From positions 12,743 through 76,742 of the forward strand of contig JAKQSI010000109.1 of assembly GCA_029570205.1 (NCBI GenBank): a stretch of DNA of 64,000 bases. The letters run 5' to 3'. A program made the translations under genes and the position numbers. The notes beneath the pieces were generated by a model that made no database searches, was not told the origin of the DNA, and saw only the letters and a list, made by a program, of their open reading frames with translations. Of this stretch, positions 54,569 through 61,321 are shown piece by piece; position 1 is the first letter of the stretch; each line of letters opens with the position of its first letter. Source of the DNA: Candidatus Omnitrophota bacterium. GTDB lineage: Bacteria; Hinthialibacterota; Hinthialibacteria; Hinthialibacterales; JAKPRU01.

Positions 54569-54930
54569 TTTCCAAGGATGGAGAGGGGGAGAAATCCGGT
54601 AGGACAGGCGTCCCTGCCTGTCGAATGTCTGAACCATGATCTACTTGATTATGGGATTTTCTTGATTCTTCATCATGCTCATCCTTTCCAAGGATGGAGA
54701 GGGGGAGAAATCCGGTAGGACAGGCGTCCCTGCCTGTCGAATGTCTGAACCATGGTCTACTTGATTATGGGATTTTCTTGATTCTTCATCATGCTCATCC
54801 TTTCCAAGGATGGAGAGGGGGAGAAATCCGGTAGGACAGGCGTCCCTGCCTGTCGACTGTCTGAACCATGATCTACTTGATTATGGGATTCTCTTGATTC
54901 TTCATCATGCTCATCCTTGAATCCGACGAA
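54569..54930. repeat. 116-base tandem repeat, three copies
   Basis: Units begin with TTTCCAAGGATGG at 54569, 54685 and 54801, an exact period of 116 bases, and differ at only a few positions. Each carries one GACAGGCGTCCCTGCCTGTC palindrome (54603, 54719, 54835). A partial fourth unit ends near 54916. No protein-coding potential is seen. The first part of the unit is also present at 30419-30494. Confidence 0.88.
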
Positions 54931-55022
54931 TCAGGGTTCAGACGGCTTCTGCGGGGTGCTTCCACCTGACAATCTCCCGTACTCAGCGATGCTGTAAACT
55001 GAGGGCGAGGAGGTCTGGATGG

Positions 55023-55113: not shown

Positions 55114-56313
55114 ATGGATTTTATTTCCGAAGACATGGCGCTATTGATGGATTCTATCCATGACGTCAGCCCGGTATCTGGATTGACGCATGCGTTTTAT
55201 CGCTATCCTGCTCGTTTTTCCCCAAGCTTTGCACGCATCACCATTTCCTTATTTACCGAAAGGAATGATATTGTATATGATCCCTTTATGGGTGGCGGCA
55301 CAACGCTTGTTGAAGCAATGCAATTAGGGCGCCGCTCCATTGGAACGGACCTGAACACTTTAGCGGTCTTCGTCAGCAGGGCGAAAACATCAATGTATAC
55401 TGATGAGGATATTTCCGCTATTTGGGCGTGGGTTATGGAAGCACAATCGGATCTTGTACTGAACAAGACCCCAAATAGGCCAATTGACTGGATATCACAG
55501 GGATACCAACGAAATATCAGCGGTCGAACGACTTGGCCGATTCGCAAGAGCCTGGAAATTGCCATTGCCAGCCTGAACAGTTTAGCCAACGTGAAACAGC
55601 AGAACTTTGTCAGATGCCTTCTGCTGAAAACGGCGCAATGGGCAGTCGATTGCCGCAAATATCATCCGTCGGCGCGTGATTTCAGGAAACAACTGCTTAT
55701 CCATGCAGAAGAAATGATCGAAGGAGCACTCTTGCTTCGGAAAGAAGTGGAGCTGATCAGGAATGGATTACCGGATAACAACAGCTTTACCCCTGTCTGT
55801 CTCCATCTTTCAGCACATGAAATATTGTACCCATCAAACTACTCTTTTTCATCCGCACCGAAACTCATTCTTACCTCGCCCCCGTACCCGGGAGTCCATG
55901 TGCTCTATCACCGCTGGCAAGTAAACGGTGCAAAAGAAACCCCCGCACCCTACTGGATCGCAGACTGCCTTGACGGCAATGGCGCATCATTTTATACCTT
56001 TGGAGATCGTAAATACAGGAATCTGGAAACCTACTTCGATAACATGCGGAAATGTTACTCGGCTCTTTCCGCCATCGGCGACAAGAATACGTGGCTTGTC
56101 CAACTTGTTGCATTCTCATCCCCTGAATGGCAATTGCCTCTATTTCTTCAAATCCTCCAAGAATGCAATTTTCAAGAAATGCTTCTCGATGATGCTCCTA
56201 ATACGATTGACGGTCGATTATGGCGGACCGTTCCGAATAGGAAATTCTATGCCGATAAGAGGGGAAAGACCGCTTCTTCGAAGGAAGTCTTATTGATCCA
56301 TAGACGATCATAG
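55114..56313 (+). CDS. Site-specific DNA methyltransferase (SPPY type)
   Basis: A 399-residue amino-methyltransferase. The SAM-binding block is 'IVYDPFMGGGTTLVEA' (FxGxG at residues 58-62), with the acidic residue in 'SIGTDLN', and the catalytic motif IV is SPPY at 255-258 ('LTSPPYPG'). The order, SAM block first and catalytic block about 190 residues later, places the recognition region between them. SPPY suggests N4-cytosine or N6-adenine methylation; which one cannot be decided. The gene is convergent with the GHKL ATPase gene (23-base gap), so the two meet tail to tail. No ribosome site is obvious. It presumably protects host DNA from the activity of the facing operon. Confidence 0.87.
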   Translation: MDFISEDMALLMDSIHDVSPVSGLTHAFYRYPARFSPSFARITISLFTERNDIVYDPFMGGGTTLVEAMQLGRRSIGTDLNTLAVFVSRAKTSMYTDEDISAIWAWVMEAQSDLVLNKTPNRPIDWISQGYQRNISGRTTWPIRKSLEIAIASLNSLANVKQQNFVRCLLLKTAQWAVDCRKYHPSARDFRKQLLIHAEEMIEGALLLRKEVELIRNGLPDNNSFTPVCLHLSAHEILYPSNYSFSSAPKLILTSPPYPGVHVLYHRWQVNGAKETPAPYWIADCLDGNGASFYTFGDRKYRNLETYFDNMRKCYSALSAIGDKNTWLVQLVAFSSPEWQLPLFLQILQECNFQEMLLDDAPNTIDGRLWRTVPNRKFYADKRGKTASSKEVLLIHRRS

Positions 56314-56336
56314 ATCCGTACAAGCTGACGGCTCTT

Positions 56337-58853
56337 TCATGTTGCCTCGCCCGAAGCAGCCATAGCATGCTCATCTTCCGCCGACAGAGAGCCAAGCGAA
56401 TTTATCATGGGGATTATTACCGGGGCTACTGCTCGGCAGAATTCCTCTACCTTCTCTTCTATTGTCGCCCCGCTACCGTTCCTGTCTTCTGTCTGCTCTT
56501 TGTTCTCAGATCGCTTTCTTTGGTCCTCCATGTCATCTCGAAGAAACGCTAAGCCCATCAACACCATGCCATATTTGAATTGCGCTCGAACCAACTCAGG
56601 CTCAGCCTTTGGAATCTTCAATTCGGTTTTTAGATACAGATTATCCATGTTCACATGGAAATCGTACAAAATACTTGAGTCGGAATCTTCCCCATCTTCC
56701 TCGGTAGTGCCAGCATTCCTAATGATCATCGCAGTATGCTTATCGAAAGGAGGCGTATAATTATGCCAGTCTTTTTCCTCAACGAGAATGACCTTGGGCA
56801 TTCTGATACGGGAGGGTTTTTCCCGGCCCTCTCCTTCTTCCTCGCTTGGGGGCTCTCTTCTGCTGTCCGTTCCTCCACATGGCAATTGCTCCTCTTTCAC
56901 GATCGCATGGAACTTATTCATGAAAGGCTCAATCCGAGAGCAATCATTGACTTCGACAAGGTAGCATAAGGTCTGGCCAACGCTGGCATGATCGGGAAGC
57001 GGGAGACTGAGGGTCGCAATTCCGTCCTGAAGATTCAGCAAGTAGTCCTGGACGGATATTTCTTCTTTGTCTTCTAGCAATGTCAATCTAAATTCTCCGG
57101 GGTCCATAGCCCGCGAGAAATACTCATTTTCTGCATCAGTTTCGAAGACCAAACGACATCTCATATTGATGTGACAATCACGTCTGAGGACGTACCCATA
57201 ATCCTTACCCTTGAACTTGAAGAACATCGGGAACCGGCGGCCTTTGAATGCGTTTCGCCCTGCTTGCGTTTCCATGGTCTTGAAGGGAGTGGACGCCCTC
57301 AGCCCACGGAGAAAAAGGTTCGATAGAATCGGCGATTGTTTTAATAAATTCTCAAGGATGTCTTCAAGAGGCTTCTCATCATCGAGTTTGGATTCTATTT
57401 CTTCACGTCGCCTTCGCTCTTTCAATTCCCGAAGACCCTGGTGTTGTTTGAGAAGTTCCTCAAGCCTCTCTTCAATTTGCTGACGCAGATCGCCTCTGCT
57501 CAAACGGTCTCGACTGTTCATAAAGAGATCTTCTCTAGCGCGACCACTTAGTTTTGTGCAATCAACAATGACGAGGATGGAATCGGCCAGGTATGATAGG
57601 CCCACTCTTTTGCGGGAGAAAAAATCCTGTGTCAGATATCCATGAGTTTGCCCGTTAACTATAAAGATTATTCCCTCATTCTTGCGATAAGCTTCACTCC
57701 CTTTCTTTCTGAAGGCATATATGGTCACGCGCATCTCTTCGCCCATGACCTTTATCGGGGCTCCCACTGGGAAGCCATTTTCCAGATTCTTGCCTTTGTC
57801 TTCATCAAGCCTGACGCGTACCCCAGTTAATGTGGTTTCGAAACTCCCCTCGTGCCCACTGTAATCCCGGCATTCATGGAATCTCATCGGCAACGCGATG
57901 TCCGGTAGAAGCAAGTCCACACGGCTAAGAAGCCCGTCCTTCATCAAAATATGCGACTTAAATCCAGTCGCGGAGTATTCGTAGAGTTTGATGAGTGTTC
58001 CCCAGTTGGCTTTGCGGGCATAGGCATCTCGACCGTCAGGGAATATCGGCAATTCCTCGGCGAAGAAGCGAAGAATTTCTCCCTCTTTGGGTCTGCTTTC
58101 AGCGCCAAGGGGAGCAAGGTACGTGTATACCGAACTTCTGCGGTTACCCTCCGGATCTTCGCGTCTTACGACCGTGAAGCTCCATTTGTTCTCATCCTGC
58201 TCCTTCTTGCTTTCTTGTTGAAGGACAACCGGATTTCTGCGACTCAGGACCAATTGCAGACTATGCTTACCACAGAACTTGAGGACGCCAGTCCCGCCCA
58301 TATTGAACTTGCCTTGTACAAAATGGATGCGCAGTTTGTTCGATTTGTTCAGAGATAATAGGGTATCAGGCATCTTGTCGGGCGTTTGACCTTCTCCCAT
58401 ATCCGCGATAGTGAAGGATGGATTCCCGCTTCCGGGTTTGGCTCCTGTTGCTGCTAAAGTGATCCCGCGAGCAATATCTGTTCTCTTGCTGTCCATCCAA
58501 TCGCGAATACAACCCATTAACGAGGATTTCCCCTCGGTTGCATTACCGAAAAAACGCGCAACGGCCTCCTGAATGCTTTGCGGAGCATTAGGACCTTCAG
58601 GATCCGTGCCGCGAACCAGGCACTCGTTCATGAGTCGGGCGTCGACAGAATTCACGAGTTTCTCAACCAATGCAGCATCCGGGCTACCCTGCTGATTGCC
58701 GATGGTGTTGTAGTTGTTCTCGTAATCACCATAGAATCGCCAAACATCCGGATTATCCCAATATCCAGCCTCTTTTAAGATCTGAATAACCTCATCTTCC
58801 GAGTCCGCTTGCATCAGATTCAGGCAAAGTGCCTTTGCTTCTTTCTCGTTCAT
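56337..58853 (-). CDS. Large GHKL (Bergerat-fold) ATPase, defence-associated candidate
   Basis: An 838-residue protein. An N-terminal Bergerat ATP-binding domain is visible: the N-box Glu64, Asn68 and Asp71 ('ALVEKLVNSVDARL'), the G1 motif D151-M-G-E-G155 ('FTIADMGEGQ') and the G2 loop 'GKFNMGGTGVLKF' (181-193), as in MutL, Hsp90 and MORC-like ATPases. A middle domain has a MutL/gyrase-like transducer look ('LTGVRVRLDEDKG'), then a coiled segment around 455-480 and a beta-rich C-terminal half of no known family. AGGGGAAAA precedes the ATG. It follows the putative DNA-binding gene by 27 bases and faces the methyltransferase gene. GHKL ATPases related to MORC occur in restriction-modification loci; the exact subfamily is unclear. 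Confidence 0.78.
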   Translation of the reverse strand: MNEKEAKALCLNLMQADSEDEVIQILKEAGYWDNPDVWRFYGDYENNYNTIGNQQGSPDAALVEKLVNSVDARLMNECLVRGTDPEGPNAPQSIQEAVARFFGNATEGKSSLMGCIRDWMDSKRTDIARGITLAATGAKPGSGNPSFTIADMGEGQTPDKMPDTLLSLNKSNKLRIHFVQGKFNMGGTGVLKFCGKHSLQLVLSRRNPVVLQQESKKEQDENKWSFTVVRREDPEGNRRSSVYTYLAPLGAESRPKEGEILRFFAEELPIFPDGRDAYARKANWGTLIKLYEYSATGFKSHILMKDGLLSRVDLLLPDIALPMRFHECRDYSGHEGSFETTLTGVRVRLDEDKGKNLENGFPVGAPIKVMGEEMRVTIYAFRKKGSEAYRKNEGIIFIVNGQTHGYLTQDFFSRKRVGLSYLADSILVIVDCTKLSGRAREDLFMNSRDRLSRGDLRQQIEERLEELLKQHQGLRELKERRRREEIESKLDDEKPLEDILENLLKQSPILSNLFLRGLRASTPFKTMETQAGRNAFKGRRFPMFFKFKGKDYGYVLRRDCHINMRCRLVFETDAENEYFSRAMDPGEFRLTLLEDKEEISVQDYLLNLQDGIATLSLPLPDHASVGQTLCYLVEVNDCSRIEPFMNKFHAIVKEEQLPCGGTDSRREPPSEEEGEGREKPSRIRMPKVILVEEKDWHNYTPPFDKHTAMIIRNAGTTEEDGEDSDSSILYDFHVNMDNLYLKTELKIPKAEPELVRAQFKYGMVLMGLAFLRDDMEDQRKRSENKEQTEDRNGSGATIEEKVEEFCRAVAPVIIPMINSLGSLSAEDEHAMAASGEAT

Positions 58854-58880
58854 TTCGTTTTCCCCTTCGGGTCTGTTGAA

Positions 58881-60035
58881 TTATCTGGATTTCGCGAAAT
58901 CTCGCCCTTGCTCGGTTGTAATATACTCAACCCTTACTCCCTTTCGTTCCCGCGCGATAAGTCCCAAGTCTGCCATCCTGGAAAGCGCTCCGGATCGCTG
59001 CGAAGCCAGGAAAGACTCGCTGAGAGACCGATTGCTGTCCGTCGGGATATAAGGTTCGAGCGCCCTGTCAAGTTTGTCCGGCGTATTTCCTCCTTCGAGG
59101 ATCGCGGCGATTATGGCACGAAATGCGAAATCCTCAACTGGCACGAAACGCCGGATATGATCCAATAGGAAATTCCTTTCCTCCAGGGAGAACTTCTGAG
59201 TGGGATCGTCCTGCAATTGATCCAGGACCGGATTGCGGAGACCGGCAAGAGCCAGTCCCGCTACAGTGAGCCGGAGCGCGGGCGGATCGTTCCCGGCGAG
59301 CACTGCCAAACGGTAGTCCGAAAGAAGACCCGATACCCGCCCCTGGCTGTCCACACTGCCCACAAACTGATTTGCATAGCGCGCGCGGCTCTTTTCAGCC
59401 TCGTCTCCCGTGCGCGGAAAAGCGGTCGCCAGCGCATTGTCCCGTCCGATTCCATGGCGCTGGTCGTGATCCGAGAGAAAGTCGCCCAGAACGGCGGCGG
59501 CTTCGGCGATCTCGGAAGCCGTTTCCAGATTTGCGCCATTCCCGTTCCTGGCAATCAGCCGGGCCAACGCACGGCAATTGGCCTTCGCGGGCAGCAGTTT
59601 GTTGTATTGGCCGAACAGCCAGCGGTCCAGCGTGAAGGCTTCTCCAGCATTCTCAACTCGGGGAACATCCACCGGAAGAACAGGCAGTTCGCTCAGCCCT
59701 TCAAAAAGAAACAAATCTGGAATTCGCAGATCCCCATCACCCGGGCTCTGCACACTTACTCCCCGCCACTTTTTCTGCTGCGATGGGGTCTGTTCCGCTC
59801 TCAATGCAGCAACCGGCCTTGCCACGCCAGCCTGCCGGGCTGGATGGGCTATCAAGCGTGGCGGGCAATTCTCACCAATGATGAGCGATCCCTTTTCAGA
59901 AAATTCTTGGTCCATGAGAAAAAGGTTTCCTACAGCAACTGCGATCAATTCACTGTAATCCTTATATTCCCCATCTTTCAACAGAGAGTCCATTTTCTGT
60001 TTGGTATGATGGTCGCAATTGAAACAGACAATCAT
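58881..60035 (-). CDS. Putative DNA-binding protein with RHH-like N-terminus and winged-helix C-terminus
   Basis: A 384-residue protein of no known family. Residues about 1-50 ('TKQKMDSLLKDGEYKDYSEL' followed by 'IAVAVGNLFLM') resemble a ribbon-helix-helix domain with an unusual CxxC before it. The centre (about 130-290) is helical. The C-terminal 70 residues ('SGALSRMADLGLIARERKG') look like a winged helix. AAGGAG is eight bases before the ATG, and a near-consensus promoter with a palindrome lies directly upstream, so the protein may regulate its own operon. It lies 27 bases before the GHKL ATPase gene. Function in defence is inferred from context only. Confidence 0.7.
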   Translation of the reverse strand: MIVCFNCDHHTKQKMDSLLKDGEYKDYSELIAVAVGNLFLMDQEFSEKGSLIIGENCPPRLIAHPARQAGVARPVAALRAEQTPSQQKKWRGVSVQSPGDGDLRIPDLFLFEGLSELPVLPVDVPRVENAGEAFTLDRWLFGQYNKLLPAKANCRALARLIARNGNGANLETASEIAEAAAVLGDFLSDHDQRHGIGRDNALATAFPRTGDEAEKSRARYANQFVGSVDSQGRVSGLLSDYRLAVLAGNDPPALRLTVAGLALAGLRNPVLDQLQDDPTQKFSLEERNFLLDHIRRFVPVEDFAFRAIIAAILEGGNTPDKLDRALEPYIPTDSNRSLSESFLASQRSGALSRMADLGLIARERKGVRVEYITTEQGRDFAKSR

Positions 60036-60059
60036 CGTCCGTTCTCCTTTTTTGATTTT

Positions 60060-60081
60060 ACTGTAATAATAGTATCACAGT
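60060..60081. promoter_or_regulatory. 22-base palindromic operator candidate
   Basis: The sequence begins ACTGT (60060-60064), ends ACAGT (60077-60081) and matches its own reverse complement at 18 of 22 positions. It overlaps the -10 of the leftward promoter, so a protein bound here would repress the operon. The RHH-like protein encoded just downstream is the natural candidate ligand. Confidence 0.6.
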
Positions 60082-60097
60082 ATGTTCTCTCTGTCAA
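60069..60097 (-). promoter_or_regulatory. Near-consensus sigma70 promoter for the DNA-binding protein/GHKL ATPase operon
   Basis: On the minus strand, TTGACA (60097-60092) and TACTAT (60074-60069) are separated by exactly 17 bases. The -35 is perfect and the -10 matches 5 of 6. It lies about 35 bases before the start codon. Confidence 0.75.
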
Positions 60098-60328: not shown

Positions 60329-61321
60329 ATGACTATCCCGGACATTCATCTGAAATCGCTTCTCCTGCTCTCCGTATGCCTTTTCCTCGGTGGATGCTCG
60401 ACCGGCGGGAAGGTCTCGAAAGAAACCCGAAAGCCGGAGCCACAGAGCGATCTGATGTCCATCTTCCCGACAGAGCAGCAAATCCCATCGCTTCAGTTTC
60501 CTGAACCCCCCAAGTCGGTTCCACGCGATAAGTTCGCGTTGTATCTCGGTACACGGGCAGCCCGGTATCAATCATACAATGTACAGGAAATCCTGTATGC
60601 CTCCTATTACAACCCCGCAAAGACCAACGAAGGCCCGGCGGTCGATGTGGAGGTAATCCGGTTCGCGTCTTCGGATGATGCGTTCGGGGCTTTCTCTGTG
60701 GAGCGTCCGGTTCTTCAGGAGAGCGCCCAGCTGCGCAAACAGGGGTATATCACTGAGAGCAAGGCGGGATTCTGGTCCGGCGAGTTATACCTTCGGATGC
60801 TCGTGCCGAAAGACACGCCCGAAAACAGCCGCTGTCTGAAAATGGTGGCGGAAGCCGCCTCCCGCCGTCTTCGCCCCGGCCCGGCCGTTCCCTCCGGATT
60901 CAGCCGGTTACTTTCAGAAAATCGGATTCCCAATTCCGAGCGGTTCATCCGCCTCCGGGTTCTGGGATATGACTTCCTGAGCGATGGCTATCTGGCGGAT
61001 TATCGTCTTGATGGCAACACCGCCACGGCGTTTGTGTGTCCCTGTGTGGATGAGGCAGCGGCGCGGGAGCGGTTCCGCGCGTTCTTCGGGGCTATTGTCG
61101 ATCAGAACGCGCATGTGGTTCCGGTAGCCGGGTTGGGGGATCGCGCATTCATGGCTCGTGGAACGCGCCACGGGAATGTGGTGGTCTTCCAGCGGGATCG
61201 GTTTCTTGCGGGGCTTCTGGCGGTTCCAACAACACTGGGCGATTTCCTTCCGCGCTTCGATGCCCAGCTGACCGCCGCATCTTCGGAATCATCACAGCCA
61301 ACCGGTGATCTCCGCAAGTAG
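60329..61321 (+). CDS. Lipoprotein, DUF6599-like
   Basis: A 330-residue lipoprotein (lipobox LGGC at about residue 22). The body has the pattern of a DUF6599-type protein ('ALYLGTRAARYQSYNVQEIL', 'EVIRFASSDDAFGAFSVER'), alternating strands and helices with an internally repeated arrangement, as in proteins common in Planctomycetes, Hydrogenedentes and relatives. Function is unknown. A TGAGG lies about 11 bases before the ATG at 60329; an in-frame start at 60197 would extend it without homology and remove the signal from the N-terminus. It precedes the pyruvate-kinase-like gene by 227 bases on the same strand, so they may be separately transcribed. Confidence 0.72.
   Translation: MTIPDIHLKSLLLLSVCLFLGGCSTGGKVSKETRKPEPQSDLMSIFPTEQQIPSLQFPEPPKSVPRDKFALYLGTRAARYQSYNVQEILYASYYNPAKTNEGPAVDVEVIRFASSDDAFGAFSVERPVLQESAQLRKQGYITESKAGFWSGELYLRMLVPKDTPENSRCLKMVAEAASRRLRPGPAVPSGFSRLLSENRIPNSERFIRLRVLGYDFLSDGYLADYRLDGNTATAFVCPCVDEAAARERFRAFFGAIVDQNAHVVPVAGLGDRAFMARGTRHGNVVVFQRDRFLAGLLAVPTTLGDFLPRFDAQLTAASSESSQPTGDLRK

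Follow-up and report, generated by a model that had tools for sequence, protein, structure and literature searches.

A convergent methyltransferase-GHKL ATPase gene pair with an exchangeable upstream partner as a candidate modification-gated defense module

What might a DNA methyltransferase and a GHKL ATPase do together when their genes run tail to tail, and is the combination one of the named defense systems? The locus that raises this question lies in a 64,000-nucleotide stretch of a Candidatus Omnitrophota bacterium genome (contig JAKQSI010000109.1), referred to here as the window. The methyltransferase (MTase) gene (55114..56313, plus strand) encodes a 399-aa protein of the N4-cytosine/N6-adenine type with motifs I and IV intact. 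Its stop is separated by 23 bases from the end of the convergent GHKL ATPase gene (56337..58853, minus strand; 838 aa), which belongs to a family with 396 relatives and is preceded on the same strand, at a spacing of 27 bases, by the gene of a putative DNA-binding partner of 384 aa, p384 (58881..60035, minus strand). The three open reading frames and the 23-base spacing are exactly as the initial annotation of this DNA had described them. We present here a computational analysis of this island and its relatives. With moderate confidence, we read it as a laterally mobile, modification-gated defense module of the restriction type, directed against foreign DNA.

The MTase-ATPase part has a G+C content of approximately 47 to 49%, versus 53 to 60% for most of the flanking sequence. 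The esterase gene to the left of the island shares 84% identity with its counterpart in a genome of the same genus, in which the matching DNA ends at window position 54949 and is followed by a different gene; the module is absent from that site. On the right, the same-genus sequence is a separate contig starting at window position 60692, which leaves that end of the insertion out of view. The interval that separates the esterase and MTase genes contains a unit of approximately 116 bp in approximately three copies (54598-54950), at the place where similarity to the same-genus genome stops. Distribution is patchy, with the ATPase present in 1 of the 14 genomes of the phylum that were searched.

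The ATPase was used to scan 84,980 genomes, one per species, which yielded the 396 relatives; the best 80 were analyzed with the window as 81 loci. Among these (best 80 of 396 plus window), the MTase adjoins the ATPase in 37, an arrangement that recurs far beyond chance. The two genes are tail to tail in 33 loci, with gaps of −50 to +65 bp, and in the other 4 the MTase has moved but is still linked. MTase-linked loci come from at least 10 phyla (Acidobacteriota, Planctomycetota, Pseudomonadota, Chloroflexota, Verrucomicrobiota, Bacillota, Myxococcota, Thermodesulfobacteriota, Gemmatimonadota, and Actinomycetota) and include the cultured strains Sphingopyxis flava R11H (L078) and Mesorhizobium loti CJ3sym (L082). 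About half of the ATPase relatives are without the window-type MTase, as is the module where it recurs in archaea. The linked loci account for 36 of the 40 members of one ATPase clade (support, 95), and the MTase label needs 5 changes on the ATPase tree, compared with 26 in shuffles. The four exceptions in the clade are L033, which is at a contig edge; L088, which has a different MTase on its upstream side; and two loci with none nearby, L022 and L083. An open reading frame downstream of the ATPase in L022 was considered as a replacement MTase and rejected, as it reads as a spurious antisense frame. ATPase and MTase identities are correlated (r = 0.51; equaled in 0 of 2,000 permutations), which indicates co-divergence. 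L036 is probably a broken copy, since its ATPase lacks the C terminus and is followed by a transposase-like gene.

Other modification genes also occur beside ATPase relatives. In L046, the convergent position is taken by a Dam-type MTase instead of the window-type one, L088 has another N4/N6 MTase, and L043 and L007 have DndB, again without the window-type MTase. The plasmid-borne relatives L003, L004, and L005 are located in or beside DUF4007/PAPS-reductase islands, and L004 and L005 also carry a kinase-like gene with HATPase_c and HATPase_c_3, of a type described previously (PMC8011034). The wider neighborhood contains type I, IIG, and II MTases, AbiEii, SoFic, SIR2, and integrases, recorded as present with no claim of enrichment.

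The MTase scores 53.2 bits against Pfam N6_N4_Mtase (cut-off, 26.7), and its profile matches in the PDB are N4C and N6A MTases. Across 36 sequences, motif I (D56-P-F-M-G60-G-G-T63-T..E67) is conserved, as is motif IV (S255-P-P-Y258); they correspond to the DPFxGxGT and (D/N/S)PPY motifs of type II-like amino MTases and bear out the designation of the protein as an SPPY-type DNA methyltransferase. For the reverse search, IMG/VR was queried with the MTase alignment; six of the nine clear relatives (E of 1e-39 or better) adjoin the ATPase or its remnant. Thus, as in restriction-modification (R-M) systems, a modification enzyme is linked to its counterpart in both search directions.

Two phage contigs, L115 and L116, carry an orphan MTase of the ATPase-linked family and no ATPase in the contig DNA covered; their phage genes, for replication or packaging, are DNA polymerase with Holliday resolvase and DnaB helicase with terminase. 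Both MTases nest within the ATPase-linked family, and that of L116 groups with those of L030 and L025 at 100. Orphan MTases on phages are a classic sign of restriction evasion through self-methylation, and phages carry MTases against unrelated systems too. L115 and L116 are possibly self-methylating phages. If methylation shields DNA from the ATPase, orphan MTases on phages are to be expected, and they provide the best indirect support here for such shielding, short of proof. GenBank phages gave no match to the ATPase or p384. In L119 (826-4860), the MTase is beside a 115-aa stub of the ATPase C terminus, followed by portal- and terminase-like phage genes, and the sequence reads like a prophage insertion into the ATPase gene or a truncation of that gene.

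Motif conservation in the ATPase was scored in 72 sequences. The N-box (E64...N68..D71-A72), D151-x-G153-x-G155, and the lid (Q180-G181-K182...M185-G186-G187-T188-G189) are invariant or nearly so, with E64, N68, D71, D151, G153, G155, Q180, G181, and G186 fully invariant; the N-box, DxGxG, and G2 loop noted as intact in the 838-aa protein are therefore conserved across the family. Searches of Pfam, NCBIfam, PHROGs, PADLOC, and PDB sequences gave nothing informative for the window ATPase; a plasmid relative exceeds the cut-off of Pfam HATPase_c_3, which matches 6 of 55 members at an E value of 0.01. An AlphaFold model built from the 72-sequence alignment (mean pLDDT, 84.9) has Bergerat-fold and S5/middle-like modules at residues ~37 to 487, in agreement with structure matches, and a strongly conserved, beta-rich and helical C-terminal region (540-838). 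The protein thus combines the ExxxNxxDA N-box, DxGxG, glycine lid, and Bergerat fold of the GHKL superfamily. The model resembles the ATPase modules of Hsp90, GyrB, TopoVI-B, and MORC2/MORC4 (MORC4; TM, 0.54 by target). The top VIA-align match is the Hsp90 paralogue TRAP1 (Z, 15.0; 293 residues; rmsd, 4.9; residues 43-486); MORC is not among the best 50 rows, which is not evidence against a relationship. FMNSRDRL (R448) is strictly conserved, and we take it to be reminiscent of the Hsp90 middle-domain arginine motif. The label MORC/MutL-like in the initial annotation holds at the level of the fold; beyond the fold it does not, as the MORC signature of the S5 domain (GhXhhpXXRhl) occurs in 0 of 72 members and Hsp90 and GyrB match the structure at least as well. 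In BFVD, the model also matches the RIIA proteins of T4-like phages, a hint that RIIA may be a further member of this broad GHKL-S5 fold group.

Several gene families occupy the slot upstream of the ATPase. The p384 family fills it in 12 other genome loci and one viral contig, a 75- to 90-aa family in 19 loci, and a 200-aa family, winged-helix-like at one end, in 13; HTH_17, DndB, or VapBC-like PIN genes do so in a few. VapBC-like PIN genes are directly before the ATPase in three distant loci (L017, 8903-9534; L030, 9589-9990; and L059, 2176-2810), accompanied in L017 and L059 by an AbrB-type antitoxin. Slot content requires at least 17 changes on the ATPase tree, so what stays together is the MTase-ATPase pair, with p384 as one partner among several. 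Where a conserved trio had been envisaged, the pair is kept across phyla and the third gene is exchangeable. In haloarchaea, p384 relatives (L009, 7683-10627; and L012) are followed by a 620-aa protein with the GHKL-like motifs REVLQNANDQ and GGSYGLGK, identified by eye; neither the ATPase family HMM nor PDB sequences match this protein, and its gene is split in L012. The genes after p384 in L010 and L011 do not encode ATPases. The loci with the 620-aa protein suggest that p384 has partners in at least two GHKL families.

The AlphaFold2 model of p384 (mean pLDDT, 80.6) contains two N-terminal helices forming an RHH-like end (1-48; weak sequence support), a disordered linker (54-100), and a two-winged-helix region (~138-384), and it fits the RHH-like and winged-helix ends first proposed for the protein. 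By VIA-align, the single structural aligner used for this comparison, the best match of residues 138 to 384 is the FokI recognition region (Z, 10.5; 188 aligned; rmsd, 3.7), and the Nt.BspD6I recognition region is close (Z, 10.0; 181 aligned). Single winged helices reach similar Z values over approximately 80 residues, so it is match length that argues for FokI. There is no sequence match between p384 and FokI recognition families, and neither PADLOC nor NCBIfam contains a system component that p384 matches.

Upstream of p384 is an operator-like dyad, TACTGTAATA-ATAG-TATCACAGTA (60059..60082, no strand assigned), overlapped by a candidate sigma-70-like promoter for the p384-ATPase operon (60069..60097, minus strand; TTGACA-17-TACTAT with an extended −10), predicted purely by consensus scan. 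TACTGT/ACAGTA boxes occur upstream of p384 genes in the window and four other distant loci. Eight p384 upstream regions hold 16 boxes, versus 0.57 in shuffles, a test that is partly circular because the motif was first noticed in the same sequences; with the window omitted, seven regions hold 13. Upstream of other partner types, the boxes occur at 0.1 per 170 nt, and there are none for L015, L074, and L106 or for the distant archaeal and other p384 relatives. The RHH-like end of p384 is a natural candidate for the binder of the boxes.

How might such a module work? The fold and motifs of the MTase suggest that it would methylate host DNA at its own sites, marking self. The ATPase, with its Hsp90/GyrB/MORC-like fold, would be the effector, an ATP-gated dimeric clamp engaging unmarked DNA. 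The exchangeable upstream gene would provide a DNA-binding partner; p384, a putative FokI-like two-winged-helix recognition module, would recruit the ATPase to unmodified target sites, and its RHH-like end probably autoregulates the operon as well. ATP binding would close the dimer round the DNA and hold or compact it, and replication and transcription of clamped DNA would be blocked, or a host nuclease recruited in trans. The full version of this scheme, nuclease-free restriction in which a FokI-like exchangeable partner finds unmethylated foreign DNA and a GHKL clamp entraps it topologically in an ATP-driven manner, is a tentative proposal that we regard as rather doubtful in its particulars. 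The broader reading as a restriction-type system, already put forward in the initial annotation, is strengthened by the cross-phylum pair, recovered in both search directions, by the lack of a component match in PADLOC or NCBIfam, by the company of defense genes, and by the phage orphan MTases; what has to be given up is a fixed trio.

A more conventional R-M system that cleaves DNA is unlikely. Its ATPase would act like MutL, paraMORC3, or a topoisomerase, with a nuclease hidden in residues 540 to 838 or activated elsewhere and with p384 or another partner giving recognition specificity. GHKL ATPases of R-M loci mostly partner nucleases (PMC2292703), the GHKL-PD-(D/E)xK fusion VcSduA requires both activities for defense (PMC12137116), and the C-terminal region is strongly conserved; its ~300 residues could hide an unrecognized nuclease. 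However, nuclease families match none of 55 ATPase members in Pfam or PADLOC, and no conserved C-terminal His is found in 72 sequences. The sole conserved C-terminal (D/E)xK, E744-x-K746, was rejected as a nuclease motif because it starts in a predicted helix and is missing from distant relatives. Nor is a nuclease gene a constant neighbor of the ATPase loci; overall, no restriction nuclease was recognized in the ATPase, p384, or constant neighbors. Still less probable is a mobile-element module with an epigenetic or addiction role, in which a selfish or regulatory MTase-ATPase pair would be joined by an antitoxin- or repressor-like upstream gene. The PIN genes in L017, L030, and L059 point in this direction, as do neighboring integrases, plasmid-borne relatives, and the operator-like boxes, but other R-M and defense genes are nearby, and evasion explains the phage orphan MTases better. 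Because R-M systems can act as addiction modules, the addiction and defense readings overlap.

The role of p384 is a separate matter. It may be a regulator alone and is not a constant part of the module. If it were only the autoregulator of the operon, the ATPase-MTase pair would be the working system and the slot would hold various repressors; this is a serious possibility that we lean against without dismissing it, and it is compatible with modification-gated defense. Its RHH-like end, the TACTGT/ACAGTA boxes that cover the promoter in each of five divergent loci, and the unrelated small DNA-binding proteins that fill the slot all fit a regulator. However, a conserved region of 250 residues beyond the RHH-like end, its two winged helices arranged as in the recognition domains of FokI and BspD6I, exceeds the needs of a simple repressor, and the haloarchaeal relatives pair with another protein bearing GHKL-like motifs. 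A compact, widespread, and helicase-free pair, present in cultured strains too, makes methylation-dependent restriction by a GHKL clamp alone directly testable, with phage orphan MTases as natural evasion controls, and exchange in the partner slot can be used to probe how a GHKL ATPase gains specificity.

MORC-like GHKL ATPases in R-M loci are a known theme (PMC2292703), on which the module is a variation. The operons of prokaryotic MORC and paraMORC1 to -5 likewise combine GHKL and S5-like ATPases with DNA methylases, spread laterally, and have defense-type neighbors; the window family differs in having no constant helicase and in its specific tail-to-tail N4/N6 MTase. Motif and domain tests, which covered MORC and paraMORC2 to -5, led us to reject membership in each of these; paraMORC1 is set apart by a C-terminal extension of its own and by linkage to HNH or MORC. 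In addition to the missing MORC signature, the late S5 ExxxH of paraMORC2 was not found with both positions above 50% and the C-terminal HxH of paraMORC5 is not conserved (72 sequences each). Among 55 members, neither the C-terminal RE-fold nuclease of paraMORC3/Shedu (DUF4263; Pfam and PADLOC) nor the TIR domain of paraMORC4 was matched, and the window's neighbors include no TIR family. PADLOC-DB 2.0.0 gave 0 matches for the window ATPase at an E value of 1 and 0 for the 55 members at 0.01. No description of the MTase-ATPase pair was found in the open-access literature that was searched. These results agree with the initial impression that this is not a named system.

Among individual systems, VcSduA, an anti-phage Shedu protein with a GHKL N terminus (PMC12137116), shares a GHKL ATPase as part of a defense protein; it is a single-gene system equipped with a DUF4263 PD-(D/E)xK nuclease, whereas the window ATPase is MTase linked and no such domain was found in it. 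The type IIS enzymes FokI and Nt.BspD6I contain the recognition regions that best match p384 138-384, but p384 has no nuclease domain, has an RHH-like end, and has no sequence match to them. Distant ATPase relatives are in or beside Dnd/Ssp-like phosphorothioation islands (DUF4007, PAPS reductase, DndB); the window island lacks those genes, and its predicted mark is base methylation. Eukaryotic MORC proteins have a GHKL-transducer module similar to the ATPase model (MORC4, MORC2), whereas the window ATPase has neither the CW zinc finger nor the MORC motif and differs in partners and C-terminal region. Iyer et al. (2008) proposed that eukaryotic MORC silencing factors descended from prokaryotic R-M ATPases (PMC2292703). 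If the model presented here is true, a nuclease-free clamp would be a bacterial equivalent of silencing by MORC, and DNA methylation would serve as the mark of self.
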